Origin: a virus
Length of the DNA: 22,007 nt
Virus record (IMG/VR): IMGVR_UViG_3300002835_001232
Location: 1 to 22,007 of that record
Strand: one strand, 5' to 3'
Shown here: positions 3,836 to 21,930 of the stretch, in pieces
Layout of the letters: each line of letters opens with the position of its first letter
Position numbering within the stretch: position 1 is the stretch's first letter
The notes under the pieces: generated by a model
What the model saw: only the letters and a program-made list of their open reading frames with translations
The model's database searches: none
What the model was told of the DNA's origin: nothing
Translations under genes and position numbers: made by a program

Positions 3836-6800
3836 TTAGATATTTTCAAACGTAGCCCCCGCTGGTGTGATTAAGAATTCAATATCGATGAATTCAAGAG
3901 CTTTCGTTGGTTTAAGATAAATCTTTCCTGTTAGTGTATTTCTATCAAGATCTTCAGGTGAAGATGAAACTGTCACACGGAAGTCGTAGATACCTCTGTC
4001 TCTTCTAATAGAGTCAAGGATTGGGTTAACACTATCTAAGAATTGTTGTCTTACAATCTCGTCGTTTTGTTCGAACAATAATCTTACTGCTACTGCTGAA
4101 ATCAATTTACGAGCTTGAAGTAAAAGTCTTCTTACGTTCAATCTGTCTAATGCTGAATCAGCTTGTTGTAACGTTTTGTTACCCCATATTACTGTTCCGA
4201 CATCAGAGAAAGTTGCGATAGGATTAATTCTACCTTTGTATAAAGTATCTCTGTTTTCTTGAGTTAGTTTAATTCTTGCTTTGATTGAATTTACAAGACC
4301 TCTTGTGTAACCCGCTGATGCGAACCAAGGGAATGCAATGTTATCAGTCAATGCTAAGTTTCTACAAACCTCACCTGTTGGTGGGATGTAAAGTTGTGTA
4401 TTGTTAACAGTATCTCTTACAAGAATCCAAGGATAGTAAGTCGCTGTGTAGTTTGAATCGATACCTGTTTGTTCTAAATTATCAACCGCTTCTGTTGGGA
4501 AAATTAATCCTAAGTTATCAGTTGTTGTTGGTAGGAACATATCGTAGTCAGGTGTTGTACAGATATAAACTGAGTCAGCTCTATCATCTTGAATCATATT
4601 GATTGCACCTTCAACTAAATTACTATTATTAACATAGTCGATACTTGAAGTAGCGAACACGTTAATGTTAGTTGCTTCAGGATTTGCAAAAGTTGCAATA
4701 CCTAATTGGTAAGCGTAGTAGTCGGTGTTTGCCCAATCTGAGTCATCTCCACCAATTGATATATTCTTGAACGCTCCCCATCCTGTTGCTGTTGGGTATC
4801 TTGATGTTGGACATGCACCTTTTAAATAACCTGTCGAACCTAAGATAAAGTCGTCACCGTTTGTTCTTGACTCTCTATAGATATCCCATCCGTCAAATCC
4901 TTTTGCGAAACACACAGTGAATTTTCTAGCGAATAATCTATAATATGGATTTTCAGGACTTGTTGGTTCTGAATTGAAACTTGCGTCTCCTACATAGAAA
5001 GATGATTCACCACTTGTTGTAAACGCATTTCCGATTGTAACAACCGTTGCACCTGAGTCCATGTGGAATCCTTTAGTTTTAGTATTCCAAGGTGTACCGT
5101 CAATAAGATTACAATGGTTCAAATTATTTTGGTAACCTTTGAACATTAAGAATGATTCATCAATACCAAGAGAACTTGAGAACCCTAAGAAAGTTCTTCT
5201 CACATTGTCACCAGGACTTGTTACCACATTTGATCCTCCGTTTGTTGTACCGAAAGGAGGGTTATAGATAACTTGACCAGGGAAATTATATTCTGTTTTA
5301 TAAACAGGAACTGGAGATAAAACATCACCAGAGTAATCTCTCATAATATAACCTTCAAATCCACAAGGTAATGCATCTACAGGGAATTCATCAGATAACT
5401 CAATCATAATAAACGCTGAGTTAAGAGGATATTCACCATCAGAAGAACCTATCTTTTTAGCAACAAATGAGTTACTGTTAGGATCCATAGTACAGTTCGT
5501 GAATTTTTCAAGAACTACAGGGTTAGCATCAGTATCAAAGAAATCTCTAACCATGATATCGAATGTGCTATTATTAAATGACATATTCATTATAGAAATC
5601 TTAACTTCTACGTTTGCAGAATCACCGTCAGAAATCGAAATGAATTTAAATAAATTATAAACCTTATTACCTCTAAGTTCTGAAACAACGAATGGAGTTT
5701 CAGGACTTTGATATTGGAATACATTATTTGCAATTGAAGACGTGTCTCCACCTCTTGCTTCAGGTAATGCAATCAACTCCGCATTTATTCCACGAATATA
5801 TCCTTTATTGTAAGCATAATTTAACATGTTTTGATAAACCTCTTCAACAAATAACGGAACTTCAAATCTTAATTTAGCAAAGTTACTTACACTGAATACC
5901 TTTGTGATGTACTCAGAATCTGAGTTTTGAAGTGAAGTCTCAAATGAGAAGTTTTCACCTTCAATTGTTGTACCTGTAATTGCAAAAGTTGAGAATGGAT
6001 TTCTTGTTATTGCAGAATAAGAACCAACGGTGCTAATTCCAACATCAGTTAATCCTGTAACTTGATATGTTGGTCCTGCACTTGTTGAATTGTATAAACT
6101 AATACCTCTTGATCTTAAAGTTGCAACAACAACATCATTATATTCTGAGAACGCAGTACCAGAGAATGTGAACATTTGGCCTGATAATGATCCGTTAAAA
6201 TTACCACTTCCTAAACTATTAAGTACCGATATTGATGTGTAGAATGAATAACCTGAATAACCGTTATTAGCTTGGTTAACGAATGTTGCATAATACCAAA
6301 CATCATTATCGTCTGATGTTAAATCAGCAGAATTAAGATCCATGTTATTACAACTAAATACGTTTGTTAAACCAGTGATACCATCAGCAATTAACTCGTT
6401 GTATACTGTACCAGATAAAGAACCAAACACATATGCACTTGTTCCAGATAATGTTGTATCTCTGAAAATATCAACTAATTGAGTTGAGATGTCTTCTTGT
6501 AAAGTGGATAAATTTCCATTCTCAAGTTGATATTGTAAACCAAAATCATCCCAAATAACATCAGGAGTTGTATCTTGTGTTATGTTAACAGTTCCTCCCG
6601 TTGATCCCGAGAAGTCCATTTCAAATGCTGTTCCTGTTGTAACATTAACACCAACAGTAGTTGGGTCCACGTTAGCAATAGTGGTGATAGACCAAGAAGG
6701 TCCCGCATCATAACCTGATAATCCTAGTATTCTAGTCACGAACAATTGGTTAGATTGTTGTAAGTAAGACTTTGCGATGTACGCCGCCTCATATTTAGGA

Positions 6801-7015
6801 ATTTGTGTATTCACAAACTTTTCAGGGGATGTACCACCAAAAAGAGTTGTGAACTCGTCGAAACTCGTTACGAAAATTGGTTCGAAGGCTGGGCCTTTTA
6901 GGGTTTCCCCTACTAACCCTAATGTAGTTACACCAACACTTTGCGCGACGAATGATAGGTCGGTCTCTGTTGTGTATACACCGGGTGAAACGAATACTTT
7001 ACTTGCTGTTGCCAT
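3836..7015 (-). CDS. Tail sheath protein, T4 gp18-like, unusually long
   Basis: This is the contractile sheath subunit surrounding the tail tube. The N-terminus has the sheath signature SPGVYTTETDLS (residues 9-20), then VGETLKGPAFEP and a segment about filament strands. The C-terminal third carries the conserved sheath core: PWFASAGYTRG (about residue 896), NPIATFSDVGTVIWGNKTL (about 925-945), and the last domain with RRDRGIYDFRV and the EFLITPAG end. At 1059 residues it is about 400 longer than T4 gp18 (659). The extra length is mostly Ser/Thr/Gly/Asn-rich, beta-type sequence from roughly residue 110 to 600, probably surface domains on the outside of the sheath. It is led by a 117-base divergent intergenic region with several promoter-like elements and ends at a hairpin. 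The start chosen is the first ATG in the frame. Confidence 0.93.
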   Translation of the reverse strand: MATASKVFVSPGVYTTETDLSFVAQSVGVTTLGLVGETLKGPAFEPIFVTSFDEFTTLFGGTSPEKFVNTQIPKYEAAYIAKSYLQQSNQLFVTRILGLSGYDAGPSWSITTIANVDPTTVGVNVTTGTAFEMDFSGSTGGTVNITQDTTPDVIWDDFGLQYQLENGNLSTLQEDISTQLVDIFRDTTLSGTSAYVFGSLSGTVYNELIADGITGLTNVFSCNNMDLNSADLTSDDNDVWYYATFVNQANNGYSGYSFYTSISVLNSLGSGNFNGSLSGQMFTFSGTAFSEYNDVVVATLRSRGISLYNSTSAGPTYQVTGLTDVGISTVGSYSAITRNPFSTFAITGTTIEGENFSFETSLQNSDSEYITKVFSVSNFAKLRFEVPLFVEEVYQNMLNYAYNKGYIRGINAELIALPEARGGDTSSIANNVFQYQSPETPFVVSELRGNKVYNLFKFISISDGDSANVEVKISIMNMSFNNSTFDIMVRDFFDTDANPVVLEKFTNCTMDPNSNSFVAKKIGSSDGEYPLNSAFIMIELSDEFPVDALPCGFEGYIMRDYSGDVLSPVPVYKTEYNFPGQVIYNPPFGTTNGGSNVVTSPGDNVRRTFLGFSSSLGIDESFLMFKGYQNNLNHCNLIDGTPWNTKTKGFHMDSGATVVTIGNAFTTSGESSFYVGDASFNSEPTSPENPYYRLFARKFTVCFAKGFDGWDIYRESRTNGDDFILGSTGYLKGACPTSRYPTATGWGAFKNISIGGDDSDWANTDYYAYQLGIATFANPEATNINVFATSSIDYVNNSNLVEGAINMIQDDRADSVYICTTPDYDMFLPTTTDNLGLIFPTEAVDNLEQTGIDSNYTATYYPWILVRDTVNNTQLYIPPTGEVCRNLALTDNIAFPWFASAGYTRGLVNSIKARIKLTQENRDTLYKGRINPIATFSDVGTVIWGNKTLQQADSALDRLNVRRLLLQARKLISAVAVRLLFEQNDEIVRQQFLDSVNPILDSIRRDRGIYDFRVTVSSSPEDLDRNTLTGKIYLKPTKALEFIDIEFLITPAGATFENI

Positions 7016-8903: not shown

Positions 8904-9299
8904 ATGAAATTATATCCATCATTAAAAATATATTTAGATAAAAGTCCAATTCATGGACTTGGTGTGTTTGCTTCACAACCAATTAAAGAAGGAGAGATTA
9001 TAGAAGTTTGTCCTATTATTGATCTTGGAATGTCTCCAAACGAATCATCACACATATTAATACACTATAGATTTAATTGGCCACAAGGAATTAATCCTGA
9101 GAAACAAGTCGTACCAGTTGGATTTGGAATGATTTATAATCACAGCAAAATACCCAACGCAAATTGGAGATCTAATTTTGAAAACACTTCTTTTGAGTTT
9201 TACGCTGTAAAAGACATTAACCCTGGTGATGAAATTTTCGTTTGGTATGGTGATGAAAATTATTGGTCTGACGGAAGACAAACAACAGTTCTTATCTAA
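8904..9299 (+). CDS. SET-domain protein (putative protein lysine methyltransferase)
   Basis: This 131-residue minimal SET domain has its signatures in order: IHGLGVFA (residues 16-23) with IKEGEIIE for the N-terminal part, GFGMIYNHSKIPNA (73-86) with the NH-S-PN cofactor-pocket motif, and INPGDEIFVWYG (105-116) with the catalytic-site tyrosine Y115. SET enzymes move a methyl group from S-adenosylmethionine to protein lysines. There are no pre-SET or post-SET cysteine clusters, so the enzyme is compact. I chose the ATG at 8904. A TTG at 8886 in the same frame is longer by six codons but lies inside the -7 promoter element. The stop TAA shares one base with the next gene's ATG, so the SET and SNF2 proteins are probably co-translated. 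The substrate is unknown; host proteins or the phage's own are both possible. Confidence 0.85.
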   Translation: MKLYPSLKIYLDKSPIHGLGVFASQPIKEGEIIEVCPIIDLGMSPNESSHILIHYRFNWPQGINPEKQVVPVGFGMIYNHSKIPNANWRSNFENTSFEFYAVKDINPGDEIFVWYGDENYWSDGRQTTVLI

Positions 9300-11056
9300 T
9301 GAGTATGGAAGTTAGTATAGAATCAAAAGCAATTTCCATTTTAGAAAACTATGATGGGCCAAACAATTATATTCAAGAACTAAAACGTAAATCAGTTCTT
9401 AATAAAAAGTTTTATCCAACAAGAAGTCAATCTGAATACATAATTAACTTTCACGACAAACCACCAAAGGTTGCCAAAAAGTGGGTTAACCTTGATTCGT
9501 ACTTTGCACAAAAATTAGCCGACGACAAACTATACACAGAAATACCTGAAAAAATATGGATCGAAAAGTTATTGGCGGATAAAGAAAAGGCTTACCATGT
9601 TTGGGGTAAAGTATTTGAGACAGAACAACTTCACGATTTTTGGGTTCCAAAAGCATCACTAATCAAAGACAACACAGTAAAAAATGTTGTTATTGATTTT
9701 GAAAAGTATTCCCACAGACCTCTTTTGTCTCATCAAATTGAGGCCGTTCAAAAACTTGTTGAGAACAAAAAATATATCTTAGCTGATGATATGGGTCTTG
9801 GTAAGACCACATCAACTATAGTTGCTGCACTTGAGAGTGGAGCTAAAAAGATATTAATTATTTGTCCTGCGAGTTTAAAGATTAATTGGCAGAGAGAGAT
9901 TGAGAATTATACAACCAGAAGCATTTATATTTCTGAAGGAAAGAACTTCAGTCAAGAACATGATTTTGTTATTATAAATTATGATATTATTAAAAATTTC
10001 CACAATGTTAAAAAGAAATCTGATTCGCAAATTCTTGGAGCCAATTTTGATTTGGTGGTCGTTGACGAAGCACACTATATTAAAAACGGTCAAGCACAAA
10101 GAACAAAACTAATAAACGACCTTGTAAAGAACGTTGATAGACTTTGGTTATTAACAGGTACACCAATGACCTCAAGACCAATGGATTATTTCAATTTGTT
10201 AAGTTTGATTGACTCACCAGTTGCCAAAAATTGGATGGCATACGCCATCAGATATTGTAGCGGATATCAATTCAATGCTGGAGGTAGAAAGATATGGAAT
10301 GTTACAGGAGCCAGTAACCTTGAGGAATTAAGAGATAGAACCTCAGGTCTCACTCTAAGACGATTAAAACAAGATGTATTAGATTTACCTGATAAAATTA
10401 TTACACCCGTATACCTTAGATTAAAATCAAAACAATACGAAGAGGTAATGGGTGATTATTACAATTGGTATGAGAAGAACCCCGATGAGAGTAAATCATT
10501 GACGGTTCAATTTACAAAACTTACCCAAGTACGACAAGTTATTGCCGAAGAGAAAGTTATTCAGACAATCGAATTGGCTGAAAACATAATAGAACAAGGT
10601 AAGAAGGTCATCATATTTTGTAATTTTACAAACTCACTCGATAGAATAATTCAACATTTTGGTAAAACAGCAGTAAGACTTGACGGATCAATGTCAAAAC
10701 CTGAAAGGCAAAACAGTGTTGATAAATTCCAAGAAGATGACAAAGTGAAAGTCTTTGTAGGAAATATAAAGGCTGCAGGTGTGGGTATTACTTTAACCGC
10801 AGCAGAGGCGGTAATAATGAACGACCTATCATTTTTACCTTCAGACCATTCACAAGCAGAAGATCGAGCTTATAGATACGGTCAAAAAAATAATGTTTTA
10901 GTTTACTACCCAATATTTGAAAACACAATAGAAGGAATTATTTACGATATACTCAACAAGAAAAAACAAGTTATTGCTACGGTTATGGGTGATGTTAAAA
11001 ATGATGTAGATTTAGTAGAAGAAATTATGAAACAAATTAACCAACGTAGACAATAA
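9299..11056 (+). CDS. SNF2-family DNA helicase/translocase
   Basis: This 585-residue superfamily 2 ATPase has SNF2 motifs: I at DDMGLGKT (residues 163-170), Ia at ICPASLKINW, II as the DEAH box (256-259), III at LLTGTPM, IV at IIFCNFTNS, V at KAAGVGITLT and VI at QAEDRAYRYGQ (519-529). The arginine-containing QAxDRxxRxGQ signature is typical of SNF2 rather than UvsW-type helicases. About 140 N-terminal residues precede the helicase core and match nothing I recognise. The closest architecture is the small SMARCAL1/HARP-like group, which anneals or remodels DNA at forks; SNF2 proteins also occur in many Bacteroidota phages. A role in replication, repair or recombination is likely. The start ATG overlaps the SET stop by one base; Met3 is a second possible start. 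Confidence 0.93.
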   Translation: MSMEVSIESKAISILENYDGPNNYIQELKRKSVLNKKFYPTRSQSEYIINFHDKPPKVAKKWVNLDSYFAQKLADDKLYTEIPEKIWIEKLLADKEKAYHVWGKVFETEQLHDFWVPKASLIKDNTVKNVVIDFEKYSHRPLLSHQIEAVQKLVENKKYILADDMGLGKTTSTIVAALESGAKKILIICPASLKINWQREIENYTTRSIYISEGKNFSQEHDFVIINYDIIKNFHNVKKKSDSQILGANFDLVVVDEAHYIKNGQAQRTKLINDLVKNVDRLWLLTGTPMTSRPMDYFNLLSLIDSPVAKNWMAYAIRYCSGYQFNAGGRKIWNVTGASNLEELRDRTSGLTLRRLKQDVLDLPDKIITPVYLRLKSKQYEEVMGDYYNWYEKNPDESKSLTVQFTKLTQVRQVIAEEKVIQTIELAENIIEQGKKVIIFCNFTNSLDRIIQHFGKTAVRLDGSMSKPERQNSVDKFQEDDKVKVFVGNIKAAGVGITLTAAEAVIMNDLSFLPSDHSQAEDRAYRYGQKNNVLVYYPIFENTIEGIIYDILNKKKQVIATVMGDVKNDVDLVEEIMKQINQRRQ

Positions 11057-11092: not shown

Positions 11093-12625
11093 ATGAATAA
11101 AACAGAAAAGAAGATTGTACAACTCGAAAAACAAATACAAGAAAACCACGTAACACACGAAACCGAGTTGTTAATCACAGAAATGAAAAAAATTGGAATA
11201 GAGAAACTTCCCTATTCTTATTCAGCCCTCAAAACGTTCATTGATCCAGAAACAATGAACTTCCACTACAACAAACACTATAAGGGCTATGTAGATAAAT
11301 TAAATGACGCACTCTCAAAGAAAAAATACGGAGACCTTGATTTAGAAAAAATTATTAAATCAATTTCAAGGTACGACAAAACAATAAGAAATAATGCTGG
11401 CGGAGCGTTTAATCACGCGTTGTTTTGGAATATGTTGTCGCCAAAACCAATGAAACTTAAAGGTGAGCTTGAAACAAAAATTAAAAAACAATTTGGTTCA
11501 TTCAACAATTTCAAAAAAGAATTCGATACAATTGCCAAAGATAGATTTGGATCTGGTTGGGTATGGTTAGTTTTAACTAGTCAAAACAAGTTGAAAATTA
11601 TGTCAACACCAAACCAAGACAATCCTTTAATGAATGTTATTGAAGGTGGTGGATTTCCTTTGTTGGGACTTGATTTGTGGGAACACGCATACTACTTAAA
11701 ATACAGAAATAAAAGAGATGAGTATATCACAAATTTTTGGAAAGTAGTAAATTGGGACTTTGTCTCAAAGATGTATGAAATGAAAACAGAAACGAGACTT
11801 GCTGAATCCACAAAATTTAAGGAGATTCTATCGGAAGGTAAATCGGAAAAATGTGGACCTGAAGAATCGGAAGCAGTAAGAGTCATGTTTAACGTTAATA
11901 GACAAACAGAACAAGAATACAAAACCAACATCGACAGAATTCTAAAAGAAGTATTCCACGAATATTGGGCAGACAGAGATAACCAAGGTAATTTAGCAGG
12001 AATTTATAATTTTGAAAAACCAGGAAGATCCGTCCTTAACAAACTCAACACAAACTACACAGTATTTTGTATCTTACTAAAAGATATCAATAAAGTCATT
12101 CACTCAATAGATGATAAGAAACAACCAATAAACTTTATTGGTAAGTCACCAAAAGATCAAATTTCAGAAATCACTAGATTTATCAAAGCGTTAGATTATT
12201 TTAAATTCAGAATATTCAATCGAGAAAGTGGAACATTTCAAAATTTAATGAGAGCTTTAGTTGAGAGTGATTCTGCTGGAGAAAAAAGAGAAGAAATTAC
12301 CGTTTCAATAATCAACAGATTTTTCAAATCACCTATTGCAACAAAAACAGGAAACTTAGGTGATGAAGATGATATGTTAAAAGGTATCGATACTAAAATA
12401 GAAAAAGACGGAAAAACATATACCGGACAGATTAAAGGATTTAAAGAAAGAATTGATAAAGACGACAAGATCATTTTGAAAGGTACAGGAAAAGTAAAAA
12501 TGTATTCTACTGATTGGATGATTTTTCAGAAAGGTAGAAATGTTCTTATCTTCAATAAGAAACCAAACATTATTGGTGGAAATTTCGTTTTTCCTAAAGA
12601 CGGTTTATTGTACGACATAAAATAA
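11093..12625 (+). CDS. Mn/Fe superoxide dismutase fused to a large C-terminal region with a PD-(D/E)XK-like motif
   Basis: Residues about 36-229 are a full Mn/Fe superoxide dismutase, which converts superoxide to peroxide and oxygen. All four metal ligands are present: H58, H108, D194 and H198 in the DLWEHAYY signature, with the second-sphere H62, Y66 and dimer-bridging E197. G104 and Q175 match Gly77 and Gln146 of E. coli SodA, which mark the Mn type rather than Fe type. The first 35 residues are a short coiled helix. Residues about 235-510 are not part of any SOD I know. Near the end, EE (400-401), GID (431-433) and QIK (446-448) after a DGK turn match the E...D...QxK spacing of PD-(D/E)XK nucleases, followed by STDWMIF and a beta strand. 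The protein is about 510 residues; bacterial SODs are near 200. Function of the fusion is unknown. The SOD call is firm; the nuclease call is tentative. Confidence 0.88.
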   Translation: MNKTEKKIVQLEKQIQENHVTHETELLITEMKKIGIEKLPYSYSALKTFIDPETMNFHYNKHYKGYVDKLNDALSKKKYGDLDLEKIIKSISRYDKTIRNNAGGAFNHALFWNMLSPKPMKLKGELETKIKKQFGSFNNFKKEFDTIAKDRFGSGWVWLVLTSQNKLKIMSTPNQDNPLMNVIEGGGFPLLGLDLWEHAYYLKYRNKRDEYITNFWKVVNWDFVSKMYEMKTETRLAESTKFKEILSEGKSEKCGPEESEAVRVMFNVNRQTEQEYKTNIDRILKEVFHEYWADRDNQGNLAGIYNFEKPGRSVLNKLNTNYTVFCILLKDINKVIHSIDDKKQPINFIGKSPKDQISEITRFIKALDYFKFRIFNRESGTFQNLMRALVESDSAGEKREEITVSIINRFFKSPIATKTGNLGDEDDMLKGIDTKIEKDGKTYTGQIKGFKERIDKDDKIILKGTGKVKMYSTDWMIFQKGRNVLIFNKKPNIIGGNFVFPKDGLLYDIK

Positions 12626-12649: not shown

Positions 12650-13762
12650 ATGGCAGTAATCGGAGAACCAGAAAGATCCAGAATCTACACAAGAATCAAA
12701 CACCAATTAGGTGCGCCACTTCGTAGTGTAGAATTGGAAGACGAAATGTTGGACTCTTTAATGGAGTTATCAATACAAGACTATACGCAATATACTTTGG
12801 ATTGGTTAATCGAAAGTCAGTGGGTGAACTTAGTTAATCTTAATATGGACGAAAAGTCTGTGGCGAAAGCATTAGTTACAAGAACAATGGATTTCGAAGA
12901 TCAATTCACTTATGCGTATTCTAAAATTGTTGGATTACAAACATCAGGACCTTGGGTATTAAAGAAAGATTATATCAATTTATCGGCAAATACACAAAAC
13001 TACGTTATCCCAAAAAATAGAGAAGTCAATGAAGTTTTATGGTTTACACCGGCTGAAATGACTTCAGGATTATTTAATCCGTGGGGTGGAGGATTTGCAG
13101 GAGCACCAGGATTAGGTGGTGGTGCGGGTTACGCTCAAATGGGTTATCAAGGTTCGTATTTGATGACATCAGGATTTGATATGTTATTACGTCTACAAGA
13201 AGTTAATATATTAAACCGTATCTATGGTGGAGATTTAACATATAGAATCACAGGTTTACCTGACGGAGAAAGATTATTACAACTATACAACGTACCTGGC
13301 GGTAGATTCGATTGGGGAACAATCGGATATAACAACTACAGAGTTTGGTATTGGTACTACGATACAGAGGGAAAAGATAGAGACGCATGTCTTAAAGCTA
13401 ATCCCGATATTATTAAACTACCATCTGATGTTCCTTTGGAAACATTAGAATGGGAAGACTTAAATGTTCCAGCTCAACAATGGGTTAGGAGATGGTTTAC
13501 AGCATACTCAAAAGAAACTTTAGCAAGAGTTAGAGGAAAGTATAGTGGTAACCTGAAAACTCCTGATTCTGAGATAACCATGGACTATCAAAGCCTACTG
13601 ACAGAAGCTAAAGACGAGAAAAGTAAACTTGAGGAAGAATTAAAATTAAGACTTGAACGTTTACGCCCTGAAAAAGTAATGGAAAGAGAGGCTTTGTTAG
13701 CGGAAAACTTGAACAAACAAATGAAGTTCAGAGCGTTTCCAAGACAAATATATGTAATCTAA
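12650..13762 (+). CDS. Neck / head-tail connector protein, T4 gp13-like candidate
   Basis: This 370-residue protein begins with a helical segment typical of phage neck proteins: RIKHQLGAPLRSVELEDEML (about residues 16-35) and then IQDYTQYTLDWL. This resembles the N-terminus of T4-type gp13 proteins of marine phages, where an LGAP/xVEL turn is followed by two helices. A beta region follows, with a Gly-rich loop (GGGFAGAPGLGGGAGY, about 146-161) and several Trp and Tyr. The C-terminus (about 310-360) is a highly charged coiled coil with EKSKLEEELKLRLERLRPEK. T4 gp13 has 309 residues. The gene is on the plus strand, separated by four genes from the minus-strand gp14- and gp15-like genes, so T4 gene order is broken. 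A virion role is likely; the exact neck assignment is tentative. Confidence 0.55.
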   Translation: MAVIGEPERSRIYTRIKHQLGAPLRSVELEDEMLDSLMELSIQDYTQYTLDWLIESQWVNLVNLNMDEKSVAKALVTRTMDFEDQFTYAYSKIVGLQTSGPWVLKKDYINLSANTQNYVIPKNREVNEVLWFTPAEMTSGLFNPWGGGFAGAPGLGGGAGYAQMGYQGSYLMTSGFDMLLRLQEVNILNRIYGGDLTYRITGLPDGERLLQLYNVPGGRFDWGTIGYNNYRVWYWYYDTEGKDRDACLKANPDIIKLPSDVPLETLEWEDLNVPAQQWVRRWFTAYSKETLARVRGKYSGNLKTPDSEITMDYQSLLTEAKDEKSKLEEELKLRLERLRPEKVMEREALLAENLNKQMKFRAFPRQIYVI

Positions 13763-17372: not shown

Positions 17373-19052
17373 TTATGATTCTTTCCGTAAGCTTCTATCG
17401 TAATGTTCAAATCTATCGTGTTCTGTTGGAGTCATCATAAGTAAACCTGCGTAAATTCTATCCTTCTTCATTTCTTGATAAATGTACGACATCCAAGTTT
17501 GTTCAAATGGTCTTGCCCATGTTGTTTCTAAAAACATTTTTTTGTTTCCTTCTTTCGAAACTATCTGAGGCCAATTACAATAATATACCTCACCAACAGC
17601 ATATGGGACTCCTTTGTGAGAAATAACCATATCGAACTTTGTTTTTGGAGCATTCGGATCAAGACCCATTTCAGGTAGTCTTGGTTTACCTGGCCAAAAC
17701 TCATCTCTTACAGATTGAGGCACATTATACCAAGCCCATTGAGTTCCATTATCACCGAAAAATTCGCTATAGTTTAACTTTAAAAAATCGAAATTTTCTT
17801 TCTTAATAATTTCTAATGTCTTTTGGTAGAAGTTTGGAACAAACCTATTAAGTCCATTTCTACACACCCCATCTTTCGGGTGGAAGAACATATCATCTTC
17901 GAAGAAATGCATATAATCTAATCCACTCTTATCAAAGTGTTCGGCAATAAACTGTCTACCACCACAAATACCTAAATTACCTTCTTTAGGAACAATGTGT
18001 TCAAAATCATATTCTTTACATAATTCATCGTATCTATCATAAGTTGACTTGTCTGTTGAATTATTCAATAAGAATTTTTTAGGTCTTGTTAAAAAATCAC
18101 TATCGTAGTCTTTCATTGAATTAATCAATGTCTCTAATTGTTTTGGACTATTGAAAGTTATAACATATAAACCAACTTTATTTAAGTCACCGTTAGATGG
18201 TGAAATCTTTATAGAAGATTCAGACTTGGGAACTAATTTGTCGTTCTTTAAATCTTCAAAGAATTTACCAATTAACCCATTACCTTCGATTTCAAAATAA
18301 TTAATAATATCAGAATGTTTGTAACACATGATACTAAATAATGATTCCTCAGTACCCATGTATCCTTCACTTAAAGTGGATAGTAATAGGTTATAGTAGA
18401 TTCCATTAATGTCGGAAATAGAATCTTTAGGACCACCAAAGAATCCTCCACGAGCAACTTTAGTAACCTTACCACCGGCAATGGAATTTAATTTATTGTA
18501 TTCAAATCCATGTATTTCTGTTTCAGCACCATAAGGAAAAGAAATAAATGAAAACTTATTAATGTATTTCGATAATTTATCTAAAACTTTATCGTGAGTA
18601 AAATATCCAGGGTGAACTGTATTTGTAAGACCACCGTCAATCCAAAACATATATTCTGAATTGAATCCATCCATAATTTTTGCATCATGTAATAAAAACA
18701 TTTTGTTCATTACAAGTGGATTATAATATTCTAACTTCGCCTGAGTTGATTCAGGTAACCATCCTGATAAATTTCTCCATTCAGGGTTATTTCTAATGTT
18801 TTGAATCTTATCGAAAAATTCATTGTTTTTGAACCACTCAGTTGGTCTTGTGATAAATTGAGTATTATCTTTCGATCTTCTTTCGAATACGAAATCCCTA
18901 AGACTTTCGTCACCAAAAATAATCATATTGTTATCTATCGATAACAATGATGTGAATTTATCCAAATAATGTTGGTATGATCTTGACCATCCATCGGAAA
19001 GTTGATCTCTTCCTATATCCCAAATACCCGTTACAAGTGTTATGTTACTCAT
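17373..19052 (-). CDS. Two-domain glycosyltransferase: HtrL/YibB-like plus GT-A
   Basis: This 559-residue protein joins two glycosyltransferase-type domains. The N-terminal part (about 1-265) matches the HtrL/YibB (WlaTC) group: VTGIWDIGR at the start, YMFWIDGGLTN with D139, and RGGFFGG (about 201-207), with an E-E-S segment near 235. The C-terminal part (about 290-559) is a GT-A fold: it begins GLYVITFNSPKQLETLI, has GNLGICGGRQF (about 358-368), and carries the metal-binding EDDM motif (E385-D387). The first domain is a paralogue of the next gene upstream. Together they could add two sugars in sequence. Its start overlaps the upstream gene by 8 bases, indicating a coupled operon. Sugar donor and acceptor cannot be told from sequence. 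Confidence 0.85.
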   Translation of the reverse strand: MSNITLVTGIWDIGRDQLSDGWSRSYQHYLDKFTSLLSIDNNMIIFGDESLRDFVFERRSKDNTQFITRPTEWFKNNEFFDKIQNIRNNPEWRNLSGWLPESTQAKLEYYNPLVMNKMFLLHDAKIMDGFNSEYMFWIDGGLTNTVHPGYFTHDKVLDKLSKYINKFSFISFPYGAETEIHGFEYNKLNSIAGGKVTKVARGGFFGGPKDSISDINGIYYNLLLSTLSEGYMGTEESLFSIMCYKHSDIINYFEIEGNGLIGKFFEDLKNDKLVPKSESSIKISPSNGDLNKVGLYVITFNSPKQLETLINSMKDYDSDFLTRPKKFLLNNSTDKSTYDRYDELCKEYDFEHIVPKEGNLGICGGRQFIAEHFDKSGLDYMHFFEDDMFFHPKDGVCRNGLNRFVPNFYQKTLEIIKKENFDFLKLNYSEFFGDNGTQWAWYNVPQSVRDEFWPGKPRLPEMGLDPNAPKTKFDMVISHKGVPYAVGEVYYCNWPQIVSKEGNKKMFLETTWARPFEQTWMSYIYQEMKKDRIYAGLLMMTPTEHDRFEHYDRSLRKES

Positions 19053-19929
19053 CTATCTTATTTAATTCTGTTAAAATTTTATAGAAACTTTTATTTCTTT
19101 GGAACAATTCCTCATCAGTTCCCGGAGGACAGTTGTCTTTACACCACCATATATCAAAATGTTTTCTGTTGAACTTTTCTGGATGATTATAAAACATTAA
19201 AGTCATTACCTGTTCTTCCATTGGTATTCTTTCTTCAGGATCTTTTAATATTTGTTCCATGTATTCTTCAAACTTAGAAACATACCATTCAAAATTTTCC
19301 TTCTTACCTCCAAACAAACCACCAATTATGTGTATGTCTCTTTGGAAATTATCGTAGTATTTTTGACCAACCGTACCTGACCAATAGTTTCGATCATTCT
19401 CTTTACCAATAATAAACAACTTATCGTCAGTAAATTCGATTAAGTTATTTAAAAAATCATTATGAAATAAATTACATTCATAATACCTTCTTGTTGCACC
19501 GTTATCAGTCAAATATTTATTCGGTACTAATCCACAATGAGATAAACCAGCATCAATCCAATAATAATAATCATATGTTTTATCTTCATTCCAATACCAA
19601 CTAAACTTAGAATATTGAACTTCAACACATCTATCTGATTTCTTTGTTTGATCAAGATCCTTTTTTTGATTTATTAAATCCTTAAACTTTGTATCGTATA
19701 AATCAAATACAACAAATTTTAATTTGTCTTTTGAGATGTTATTTTCAACATAAAAAAAGACTTCAAGGTCTTGTTTTTCGTCTTCTGTTGTGTAACAAAT
19801 AAAATCAGCATTAGTCATTTTTAGTAATGACAATAAACTGTATCTGTAATGACCTCCTCTGGCGTGTCTACCACCTAAATCAGACCCTGCTAATCTACTG
19901 TAGATCGCTGTAATAAATTTAACCGACAT
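19045..19929 (-). CDS. HtrL/YibB-like glycosyltransferase
   Basis: This 294-residue protein has the HtrL/YibB (WlaTC) pattern. It has KFITAIY with Arg/Gly residues near the start, YSKFSWYW (about 106-113), the sugar-nucleotide or metal-binding YYWIDAGLSHCG (about 122-133, D126), and IIGGLFGGKKENF (about 215-230). The tail has PMEEQVMTLMFYNHPEKF. It is one domain long and paralogous to the first half of the next gene downstream, so a duplication within the operon is likely. The gene overlaps its neighbours on both sides (11 and 8 bases). Family members are found in surface glycan loci of bacteria and in phages; substrate is unknown. Confidence 0.8.
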   Translation of the reverse strand: MSVKFITAIYSRLAGSDLGGRHARGGHYRYSLLSLLKMTNADFICYTTEDEKQDLEVFFYVENNISKDKLKFVVFDLYDTKFKDLINQKKDLDQTKKSDRCVEVQYSKFSWYWNEDKTYDYYYWIDAGLSHCGLVPNKYLTDNGATRRYYECNLFHNDFLNNLIEFTDDKLFIIGKENDRNYWSGTVGQKYYDNFQRDIHIIGGLFGGKKENFEWYVSKFEEYMEQILKDPEERIPMEEQVMTLMFYNHPEKFNRKHFDIWWCKDNCPPGTDEELFQRNKSFYKILTELNKIDE

Positions 19930-20665
19930 AATATGGAATATGTTTTTTTTCTTCTTTTATTTTTTCATTTCCTTCTTCACTCTTAAATTCATTTGGAAGT
20001 TTCTTTGGTGAATATAAATTCCAATTATATGTTTGAGCATAGAAGTTATTATACATACCATGAGAAACATCAGAATACGAATTTCTTTGAGGTGCAATTG
20101 GTAAAATAGGACAATAAGATTGAAATTTAGGGTAAATAAAATTAGCCAAATATCCATCAATTGGAAAATAATAATCACCAGATGTTGTGAAAGCTGTTAG
20201 GGAAATATTAAACATTTCATCATATACAGATTTATCGTATATTAAAATATTTGTTGCAAAAGTTTCTGTATGTACTTCGCTTTCTTTAGGTGGAGTGTTT
20301 GTAATATCTAATAACAAATCATACTTATCACTTAAATTAAGTTTTCTGTTTAAAGTTGGTGTAATGTTAATAACACCAAACTCAATTCCATCTATTTGTT
20401 TTTCAATGTCATCTAACAGTGATTTAGCATATGGCATAAACACACAATCGTCTTCAATCACCATCACGCGATCATACCCTCTTTCTTTTGCAATTTTAAT
20501 AATTCCTAAGTGAGAAAGGGTACAACCCATATAACTATTTCTATTAATTGCGTTAAATTTTTCAAACTCCCATCCCATATAATCCATCTCTTTTTTAATT
20601 AATTCGAGATTATCTGGTCGAGTTTCCAAATTAACAACAAATTTTGGAATATCTTGAAACTTCAT
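19919..20665 (-). CDS. Glycosyltransferase family 25-like protein
   Basis: This 248-residue protein resembles GT25 (LPS-type) transferases. It has VVNLETRPDN near the N-terminus (residues 10-19), then MGCTLSHLG (46-54), which is the conserved GC.xSHL element, and MVIEDDCVF (68-76), with EDD (71-73) as the metal-binding triad. Later, ETFATNILIYDK (about 144-155) matches the family's acceptor-side region. GT25 enzymes transfer galactose or related sugars to glycans or hydroxylysine. The ATG overlaps the upstream gene's TAA by one base, and its end overlaps the next gene by 11 bases. The C-terminus is Lys/Glu-rich (EEGNEKIKEEKK). Confidence 0.8.
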   Translation of the reverse strand: MKFQDIPKFVVNLETRPDNLELIKKEMDYMGWEFEKFNAINRNSYMGCTLSHLGIIKIAKERGYDRVMVIEDDCVFMPYAKSLLDDIEKQIDGIEFGVINITPTLNRKLNLSDKYDLLLDITNTPPKESEVHTETFATNILIYDKSVYDEMFNISLTAFTTSGDYYFPIDGYLANFIYPKFQSYCPILPIAPQRNSYSDVSHGMYNNFYAQTYNWNLYSPKKLPNEFKSEEGNEKIKEEKKHIPYYVG

Positions 20666-21930
20666 TAACTAATTACATTGTGGTTTAATTGACCTGTGAT
20701 TCTATCACACCATCCTTTAGATTCCGAGTGAGGCCAAACAACCCAATATTCAGGTAATTCGTCAGTTTGGAATTCTCTCCATACTTTACAGTATTTGTCA
20801 GGATCTCTCATGAAACCTGCAATTTCATTTTTGTCCGCATCTTTTCTGAATAAAGTTTTATCTTCTTTACCGTGGAATGCAACAACCCAAAAATCATAGT
20901 CTGTTTCAGTAACTTGAGAATATCCAATATCAATACAATGTTTAAACATCATACAGAAACTATCTTTCCATTCTTGTTCTGTCTCAAACTTATAAGGGTT
21001 TGGTGGATAGTTTTTATCTAAAGTATATTTGTCAATCGCTCTTTTCGAGAAAAGAATTCCTGCATACTTTTCATAATCAGTAAGAGTTCTTACAGGTCCG
21101 AACCCATAAGGACCATCATGACCTTCTTGAGTTTCTCCATCCATGCCGAATAACTTTCTATTTGCCAAATGACTTTTTTGATTTCTTCTTACCCACTCTT
21201 TATCGTCATCCCATTGTTTTGTTCTACCCTTACGAGTGTACTCGTGGTAAACAACTGGAATATGAGGGTGAAATAAATCATAACCCCAAGTGTAAGCTCT
21301 TGCTGCAATCGAGATTTCTTCTCCGTGGAAATAGTATTCAGGATTGTGTTGAACTTCAGTTGAAAATTCTCCTAATGTGAAACAAAAGTGTGCCGAATAA
21401 AATCTTGCTGTTACAGGTTTTTTCATTTCTCTCCAACCTGGAATTGTTTCAGGTAAGAAGAATACAGCACCTTCAGGAATGAATCTATCAAATACCATTC
21501 TCCACGCATCTTGTGCACGTCCTGCAGGATCGTTTTCGGGGTCAAAAGACGGAACATAACCCGTAAGTAGAGGTTTCTTGTATCCGTCCTTTTGTAACCC
21601 CTTAATCATTTTGATAAGGATATCATCCCAATCCTTAACAAATCTCATATGTGAATCTATTTGTAACGTATATGTTTCTCCGTCATATAATTGTTGTGTC
21701 AAGTTTCTTGCCCAACAAACTCCTTGTGCCTCTTGGTAAGGTATATCTAAGATTTTAAATCTTTTATCGTTTCTGTATTCGTCGAGGTTATCAAACCCGT
21801 CAGTTTCATTAAATTGTCTTGCGATTGCAAAAACTAAGTTTTTAGGTTTTTTGGCGTTCGCAATCATGTCTTTTAATGTTGGAACTAATTGTGGGTCTCT
21901 GTAAGACGCGATTTGGATAAAAATCTTCAT
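20665..21930 (-). CDS. GlcNAc-transferase-like (Skp1-type) glycosyltransferase
   Basis: This 421-residue protein is close to the GlcNAc domain family (Skp1-type GnT and bacterial relatives). It has IQIASYRDPQLVPTL at the N-terminus (residues 5-19), AQGVCWARN (68-76), LQIDSHMRF with the metal-binding DSH (92-94), YSAHFCFTLGEF (about 179-190), and FHGEEISIAARAYTWGYDLF (about 201-220). These enzymes add N-acetylglucosamine to serine, threonine or hydroxyproline on proteins. It is the first gene of the operon and lies just after a terminator (21957-21984), so its promoter must lie between 21931 and 21956 or read-through must supply it. A Tyr/Trp-rich C-terminal region of about 150 residues is less familiar. 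Confidence 0.85.
   Translation of the reverse strand: MKIFIQIASYRDPQLVPTLKDMIANAKKPKNLVFAIARQFNETDGFDNLDEYRNDKRFKILDIPYQEAQGVCWARNLTQQLYDGETYTLQIDSHMRFVKDWDDILIKMIKGLQKDGYKKPLLTGYVPSFDPENDPAGRAQDAWRMVFDRFIPEGAVFFLPETIPGWREMKKPVTARFYSAHFCFTLGEFSTEVQHNPEYYFHGEEISIAARAYTWGYDLFHPHIPVVYHEYTRKGRTKQWDDDKEWVRRNQKSHLANRKLFGMDGETQEGHDGPYGFGPVRTLTDYEKYAGILFSKRAIDKYTLDKNYPPNPYKFETEQEWKDSFCMMFKHCIDIGYSQVTETDYDFWVVAFHGKEDKTLFRKDADKNEIAGFMRDPDKYCKVWREFQTDELPEYWVVWPHSESKGWCDRITGQLNHNVIS

Follow-up and report, generated by a model that had tools for sequence, protein, structure and literature searches.

The window, that is, the whole 22,007-nucleotide stretch of viral DNA analyzed here, contains one uninterrupted open frame of 510 codons whose product is composed, in this order, of a leader helix, a superoxide dismutase (SOD) of the Mn type, a linker rich in LxE motifs, a helical domain, and a C-terminal nuclease-like domain (Table 1). 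The motifs at the joints of this fusion suggest that it may be a polyprotein-like internal head protein, which would be processed in the prohead and injected into the host, a reading held here with just short of even confidence.

Table 1. Features of the fusion ORF and of the genes flanking it (positions in the window).
Feature	Position	Strand	Evidence or conservation
SNF2-family helicase gene, directly upstream	9299..11056	+	Pfam SNF2-rel_dom 1.7e-31
SOD-nuclease fusion ORF	11093..12625	+	510 aa; full-length relatives found
N-terminal leader helix, residues 1-30, ends I28-T29-E30 before SOD	11093..11182	+	E30 83/83; I/L28 83/83
Mn-type Fe/Mn superoxide dismutase domain, residues 36-230	11198..11782	+	Pfam, PDB, invariant ligands
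L236-A237-E238, candidate prohead-protease site	11798..11806	+	E238 83/83; [LIVM] at -2 83/83
L246-S247-E248 in TKFKEILSE, candidate prohead-protease site	11828..11836	+	resembles T4 capsid-targeting peptide
Helical domain, residues 249-380	11837..12232	+	invariant C254 and RSxxNxLNTN (312-321)
PD-(D/E)XK-like nuclease domain (predicted), residues 381-510	12233..12622	+	AF2 model, Foldseek, alignment
E400, long-helix Glu	12290..12292	+	83/83; kept in paralogues and giant phages
D433, predicted catalytic Asp, edge of strand 434-438	12389..12391	+	83/83; kept in far relatives
Q446-I447-K448 in strand 441-449	12428..12436	+	Q446 and K448 83/83; kept in far relatives; DSSP
Neck / head-tail adaptor-like gene, downstream	12650..13762	+	phrog_211 5.9e-12

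The fusion gene and its genomic setting

A first scan for the fusion protein returned 161 relatives, and a profile search for the full architecture, as proposed in the preliminary description of this DNA, uncovered the SOD and the C-terminal part in one frame in about 290 ORFs of IMG/VR, many of which are nearly identical copies. The SOD was also present in 250 of the 255 ORFs that the C-terminal profile detected in one locus set, and in 43 of the 65 from a second set, which was compiled later and is more divergent (loci that overlap and contigs that are nearly identical are all included in the fusion counts). The abundance of intact fusions, with identities between about 45% and about 100% in the C-terminal part, rules out that a frameshift or an assembly error had joined two genes. 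A single contig (L071) does carry the two parts as separate ORFs, as such an artefact would require, but the probability of an artefact is negligible. All figures on residue conservation refer to an alignment of 83 distinct fusion proteins.

The window derives from a T4-like myovirus, of which it covers 22 kb without the head region. Relatives of tail sheath, tail tube, baseplate hub, and head-tail adaptor proteins were found on it, its B-family polymerase is nearest to those of Salinibacter phages (about 23–24% identity), and the long contigs of its relatives measure 149–326 kb. Phages of this kind are T4-related and often jumbo-sized. The host is probably a member of the Bacteroidota, because the cellular SODs nearest to the SOD domain (up to 54% identity across the whole domain) are mostly from this group, in a scan that detects close relatives only. 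The SNF2-family gene ends 36 bp upstream of the fusion ORF on the same strand, and the neck gene follows downstream, just as the preliminary description had it. The T4-type late promoter TATAAATA was encountered six times versus 3.4 expected, which is not clearly above chance.

Upstream of the SNF2 gene, a SET-domain protein is encoded (8904–9299, plus strand; Pfam SET, 9.1e-17); a SET gene (2.3e-14; L427:4314-4751) also adjoins the nuclease module of the 735-kb phage LR756501.1. The tail sheath relative (3836–7015, minus strand) is, with 1059 aa, long for a sheath, and its best sheath match corresponds to the C-terminal third (770–1056). A block of four genes (17373–21930, minus strand) resembles glycosyltransferases by eye.

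The SOD domain

Pfam recognized the domain in two parts, Sod_Fe_N (residues 36–116; 1.3e-22, 80.5 bits vs a cut-off of 27) and Sod_Fe_C (residues 123–226; 1.3e-41, 141.2 bits vs a cut-off of 20.9), and bacterial Mn-SODs ranked best in a search of the PDB (E 6e-60, residues 38–230). The metal ligands H58, H108, D194, and H198, the Mn-type residues G104 and Q175, and the second-shell residues H62, Y66, W156, E197, and Y201 are the same in every one of the 83 distinct fusions. The ligands and the Mn-type pair had been placed correctly in the preliminary description, and the SOD domain is apparently intact and of the Mn type.

The C-terminal domain

Since SODs crowded the results when the fold of the entire protein was searched, a separate model of the C-terminus was built (AF2, residues 233–510, from an alignment of 55 distinct sequences), which resulted in a pLDDT of 90.4 and a pTM of 0.85. 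Foldseek against the PDB placed I-Ssp6803I first (2ost; E 0.022, probability 0.99) and Hjc second (4tkd; E 0.032, probability 0.97), and the top five chains, as well as seven of the nine top chains, were PD-(D/E)XK nucleases (I-Ssp6803I and Hjc). The nuclease-like C-terminus suggested earlier, for which a fold search had been proposed, is thereby supported, if with modest E-values; no match in the PDB had an E-value below 0.001. Neither of the two outcomes that the preliminary description had named as refuting its idea, a joining artefact or a fold unrelated to nucleases, was encountered. Among viral models (BFVD), two proteins, A0A6J5L953 and A0A8D9CCA0, matched the whole C-terminal part, and further matches were short proteins, some of them annotated as PD-(D/E)XK endonucleases or resolvases. 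A0A8D9CCA0 is an uncharacterised protein of 1113 aa from an uncultured marine phage; the C-terminal module was matched at a TM of 0.81 and 21% identity, and no assignment was found for the other 800 residues.

According to DSSP, helix 380–411 of the model holds E400, D433 precedes strand 434–438, and QIK lies in strand 441–449 of the same hairpin, across which D433 and Q446 would be expected to lie opposite one another in the model. GID (431–433) and QIK (446–448) behind a Glu-rich helix had already been pointed out in the preliminary description; the glutamate of this helix is E400. None of the 83 distinct fusions deviates at E400, D433, Q446, or K448, nor at D427 or D474; the first four are also retained in distant stand-alone relatives of other gene context. 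Glutamine in place of glutamate is compatible with activity, since SPARDA DREN, which resembles I-Ssp6803I, works with a D-QxK triad (D41, Q60, and K62, with Mg; PMC12205087). The C-terminal domain is predicted from its model to be a PD-(D/E)XK-like nuclease.

It is quite improbable that the domain is no nuclease and that D433, Q446, and K448 resemble an active site by chance. For the C-terminus, no family of Pfam, PHROG, or NCBIfam scored above cut-off (DUF6602 was best, with an E-value of 0.0045), the weak matches were scattered, and the Foldseek E-values in the PDB exceeded 0.001, all of which would fit a chance resemblance. The missing match to a curated profile is, though, common for divergent PD-(D/E)XK members. 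Against chance speak the predominance of these nucleases among the top PDB chains at a probability of up to 0.99, the annotated endonucleases and resolvases among the BFVD matches, and the correct order of helix-E, strand-D, and strand-QxK, composed of residues that survive the deepest divergence. The matches of the C-terminus to DUF6602, phrog_5018, and GajB (3.9e-4, helicase model) were too weak to be used, and a sequence-profile search of the PDB yielded nothing useful. When 84,980 species, with one genome per species, were scanned by pattern, no cellular relative of the C-terminal module was detected.

Alternatively, the nuclease fold could no longer be catalytic and the protein could be a part of the virion or its assembly (neck, head, or scaffold core), with the SOD decorating the particle. 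Although the gene is situated in a block with neck, sheath, and tube genes, this is unlikely; an inactive fold should drift, but E400, D433, Q446, and K448 are invariant and persist in far relatives.

Occurrence of the nuclease module without SOD

The SOD is missing from 22 of the 65 nuclease ORFs of the divergent set, namely from 18 IMG/VR orthologues, two overlapping entries for the protein of LR745206, and two paralogues. The SOD-less orthologue L393 resides at the same place (SNF2 gene, module, neck gene, small gene, and polymerase) and reads MKNTENKVNLIIEEIKKNETDRKVTLILSE/SKAEKC. L382-like proteins retain the very beginning of the SOD region (SINEMKKIEIEKL), fused straight to KSIISEGKSERC, a junction that looks like a deletion scar. 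No other Sod_Fe_C match was present in the SOD-less genomes, records of 308 and 318 kb among them. In a tree of the module, SOD-less forms were interspersed among SOD-bearing ones, and well supported branches forced at least three changes, a count to which poorly placed distant outgroups may have contributed in this quickly computed tree. These comparisons indicate that the SOD is an optional cassette that was lost several times at the same locus.

Two giant phages possess the module by itself: LR745206.1 (635 kb) with a version of 251 aa (E 1.5e-9), and LR756501.1 (735 kb) with one of 290 aa (6e-7 with tblastn and 8e-24 with the profile). In the latter, the module has a different gene setting, beside a SET gene and with no SNF2 gene within the 10.6 kb read. 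The module can, thus, do without the SOD, as both the giant phages and the SOD-less orthologues demonstrate. The preliminary description had also considered that redox state might be coupled to DNA cleavage; this idea is not supported, because orthologues at the same locus dispense with the SOD and keep the module, and because the junctions look like protease sites and not like a rigid connection of the two domains.

A paralogue of the nuclease module (493–499 aa; L060:2160-3647, L169:471-1955, and L394:149-1645, all on the minus strand, as well as L164 and L170) is joined to a Phage_L5_gp82 domain (4.8e-29) and a stretch resembling a zinc ribbon, and lies a few genes away from the SOD fusion. 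Some relatives, for example G001–G003, have a comparable protein lacking the nuclease.

Candidate prohead-protease sites at the joints

The motifs ending in E30, E238, and E248 look like cleavage sites of a gp21-type protease. Like the former two (Table 1), E248 is invariant and preceded by L, I, V, or M at position −2 in all 83 distinct fusions; a second LxE of the leader, I15xE17, is less conserved (I/L15 in 83, E17 in 65 of 83). The linker is highly variable, and the LxE-motif residues and C254 are the only ones invariant in it. In the control proteins (SNF2, neck, polymerase, and two tail-region proteins), conserved LxE occurred only in conserved context. As these controls have fewer variable columns, the comparison of LxE counts is not a formal test, and the invariant LxE motifs in a variable linker are a suggestive distinction of the fusion from its five neighbours. 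The invariant glutamates with their hydrophobic residue at −2, positioned at the SOD boundary in every fusion, argue for an internal head protein; that the (I/L)xE motif is short and loose, and that AF2 draws the SOD-nuclease linker as one helix, argues against it.

A gp21 homologue (PF03420) was identified in four of seven long relatives and then in six of six, irrespective of whether they carried the SOD (two records are common to both sets, and the three without gp21 are partial contigs of 104–126 kb). The candidate capsid protein of the relatives contains FLINE/A or YLINE/A (e.g., ENQASFLINE/A) about 60 residues in, and two of three of their proteases start with M-K-x-L-R-I-L-E/A (e.g., MKQLRILE/A). 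T4 gp23 loses 65 residues. The motifs in both proteins, the phage's own capsid protein and protease, are located where T4-type processing would fall, which, together with the gp21 homologues, again argues for an internal head protein. From known T4 substrates, mostly short propeptides are removed, and the release of a whole internal enzyme would be unusual, which speaks against this reading. In T4, gp21 strips the propeptides of gp23, gp24, and internal proteins, the latter being taken into the core by a capsid-targeting peptide (CTS) (PMC5694885; PMC9958956), and it cleaves Alt at ITE-6 and LTE-619 (PMC5694885). Precedents for both enzymes in a particle are consistent with the same reading: staphylococcal nuclease was packaged in T4 via the CTS and cut upon addition of calcium (PMC3012670), and SOD is found in virions of giant eukaryotic viruses (PMC9405923).

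The stand-alone module of LR745206.1 begins with MKKFTEYIKE/S, a T4-like capsid-targeting form, and about ten other proteins in 300 kb of this phage begin alike (MIKKYLDFIKE, MISKYNQFINE, MKNFKDFMNE, and others); the loose motif, which was shaped after inspection of the data, was present at 6.8% of N-termini versus 3.2% inside (p 0.001). This CTS-like leader, as well as LSE248 or an equivalent being kept in most SOD-less orthologues, supports the notion of an internal head protein. In the first 300 kb of LR745206.1 (L432–L446), about eleven proteins share a near-uniform start, M..K[YF]..FI.E, and proteins with this start are candidate internal head proteins of the 635-kb phage.

The T4-like CTS pattern was not significantly enriched at the N-termini of three close relatives (p 0.13–0.25), which argues against an internal head protein, and I15xE17 is the sole capsid-targeting-like feature of the leader in the window. 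Another N-terminal tag, [LIV][TSN]E[SQR], was enriched in close relatives (p 8e-5, in a test that pooled related genomes and used a tag defined after inspection of the data); in its form ITES or LTES, followed by a helix, this tag resembles KLTESTKMKQILSEGK in the linker of G001. In the proteomes of G001–G003 (L177–L203), otherwise unrelated proteins carry the N-terminal tag [LI][TSN]ES.. and then a helix ending with [LIM].E[QN], and one of them is encoded near portal and terminase genes. With regard to the virion association that the preliminary description had derived from the neighbouring neck gene, this neighbour alone is not the basis; indirect support comes from the (I/L)xE motifs, gp21, and the CTS-like leader of the stand-alone module.

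Proposed function

If the fusion is an internal head protein, its leader would carry the precursor into the prohead core, where a gp21-type prohead protease would cut after E30, E238, and E248 and so free SOD and nuclease inside the head. The nuclease would be kept inactive while in the capsid, and both enzymes would be injected together with the DNA; in the new host cell, the nuclease would process DNA, and the SOD would clear superoxide near the entering genome. That the two are packed as one precursor, freed in the capsid, and injected as a defence against oxidative or DNA-targeting responses of the host at the very outset of infection is conceivable, if rather doubtful.

The main alternative is a permanently fused intracellular enzyme, whose nuclease works with the SNF2 helicase on recombination intermediates, in host DNA breakdown, or in packaging-related cutting, and whose SOD guards the phage DNA or the enzyme itself from superoxide of the infected cell. 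This is possible, though on the improbable side. The fusion gene follows the SNF2 gene closely, as that of a DNA-processing enzyme might, which at the same time weakens the case for an internal head protein. The SNF2 gene, moreover, still adjoins the module in SOD-less genomes, Holliday-junction resolvases are among the structural neighbours, and the one-ORF fusion is maintained across its many relatives. A permanent fusion is, in contrast, difficult to reconcile with the repeated loss of the SOD while the module was kept, with linker invariance being limited to the LxE-motif residues and C254, and with the module of the 735-kb phage lying beside a SET gene, with no SNF2 gene in the 10.6 kb covered. 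The weak fold matches in the PDB (0.02–0.03) count against the internal head protein as well.

The literature searched contained no description of a SOD-nuclease fusion, nor any account of its conserved cassette layout, of orthologues without the SOD, of the modules in giant phages, or of the candidate processing sites. Each part is known singly. The comparisons define a phage nuclease module common to phages of 635 and 735 kb, onto which SOD and L5-gp82-like domains are attached. Should the internal-head-protein reading hold true, the virions of a common environmental phage group would deliver a nuclease along with an antioxidant enzyme, exact cleavage sites would be available for testing, a protein now filed merely as "superoxide dismutase" would be explained, and whether superoxide truly matters in the early phase of phage infection could be tested directly.

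Comparison with known systems

The architecture is apparently already deposited in UniProt without comment. A0A6J5L953 ("superoxide dismutase," uncultured Caudovirales phage) comprises 501 aa, and the C-terminal part aligns with it over the whole length (TM 0.86, 33% identity); judged from its name and length, it apparently has the same architecture, but it is annotated as SOD only, and the name is silent on the C-terminal part. The earlier statement that SODs normally lack such a partner therefore needs qualifying.

With the SodA-type Mn-SODs of the Fe/Mn family, the SOD domain has the fold, the four ligands, the Gly/Gln pair, and the second shell in common; unlike them, it is flanked by a phage leader on one side and a nuclease module on the other, and is dispensable in orthologues. 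The SODs of jumbo phages (the PA5oct group and Vibrio phage 2.275.O) are likewise phage-borne Fe/Mn enzymes, but share 28–29% identity with the SOD of the fusion, and the tblastn match spans the SOD region only. The C-terminal domain shares the fold match and the D/QxK triad with I-Ssp6803I, the Hjc resolvase, and SPARDA DREN, whereas it has no detectable sequence relation to them, possesses its own helical N-domain with RSxxNxLNTN, and was found only in phages here.

LxE motifs, a gp21 homologue, and a CTS-like start, the latter on a stand-alone relative, are what the fusion has in common with the gp21 substrates IPI–III and Alt of T4. In contrast to these internal head proteins, the fusion is a candidate for a location in the virion, and its LxE motifs bracket an internal enzyme domain.
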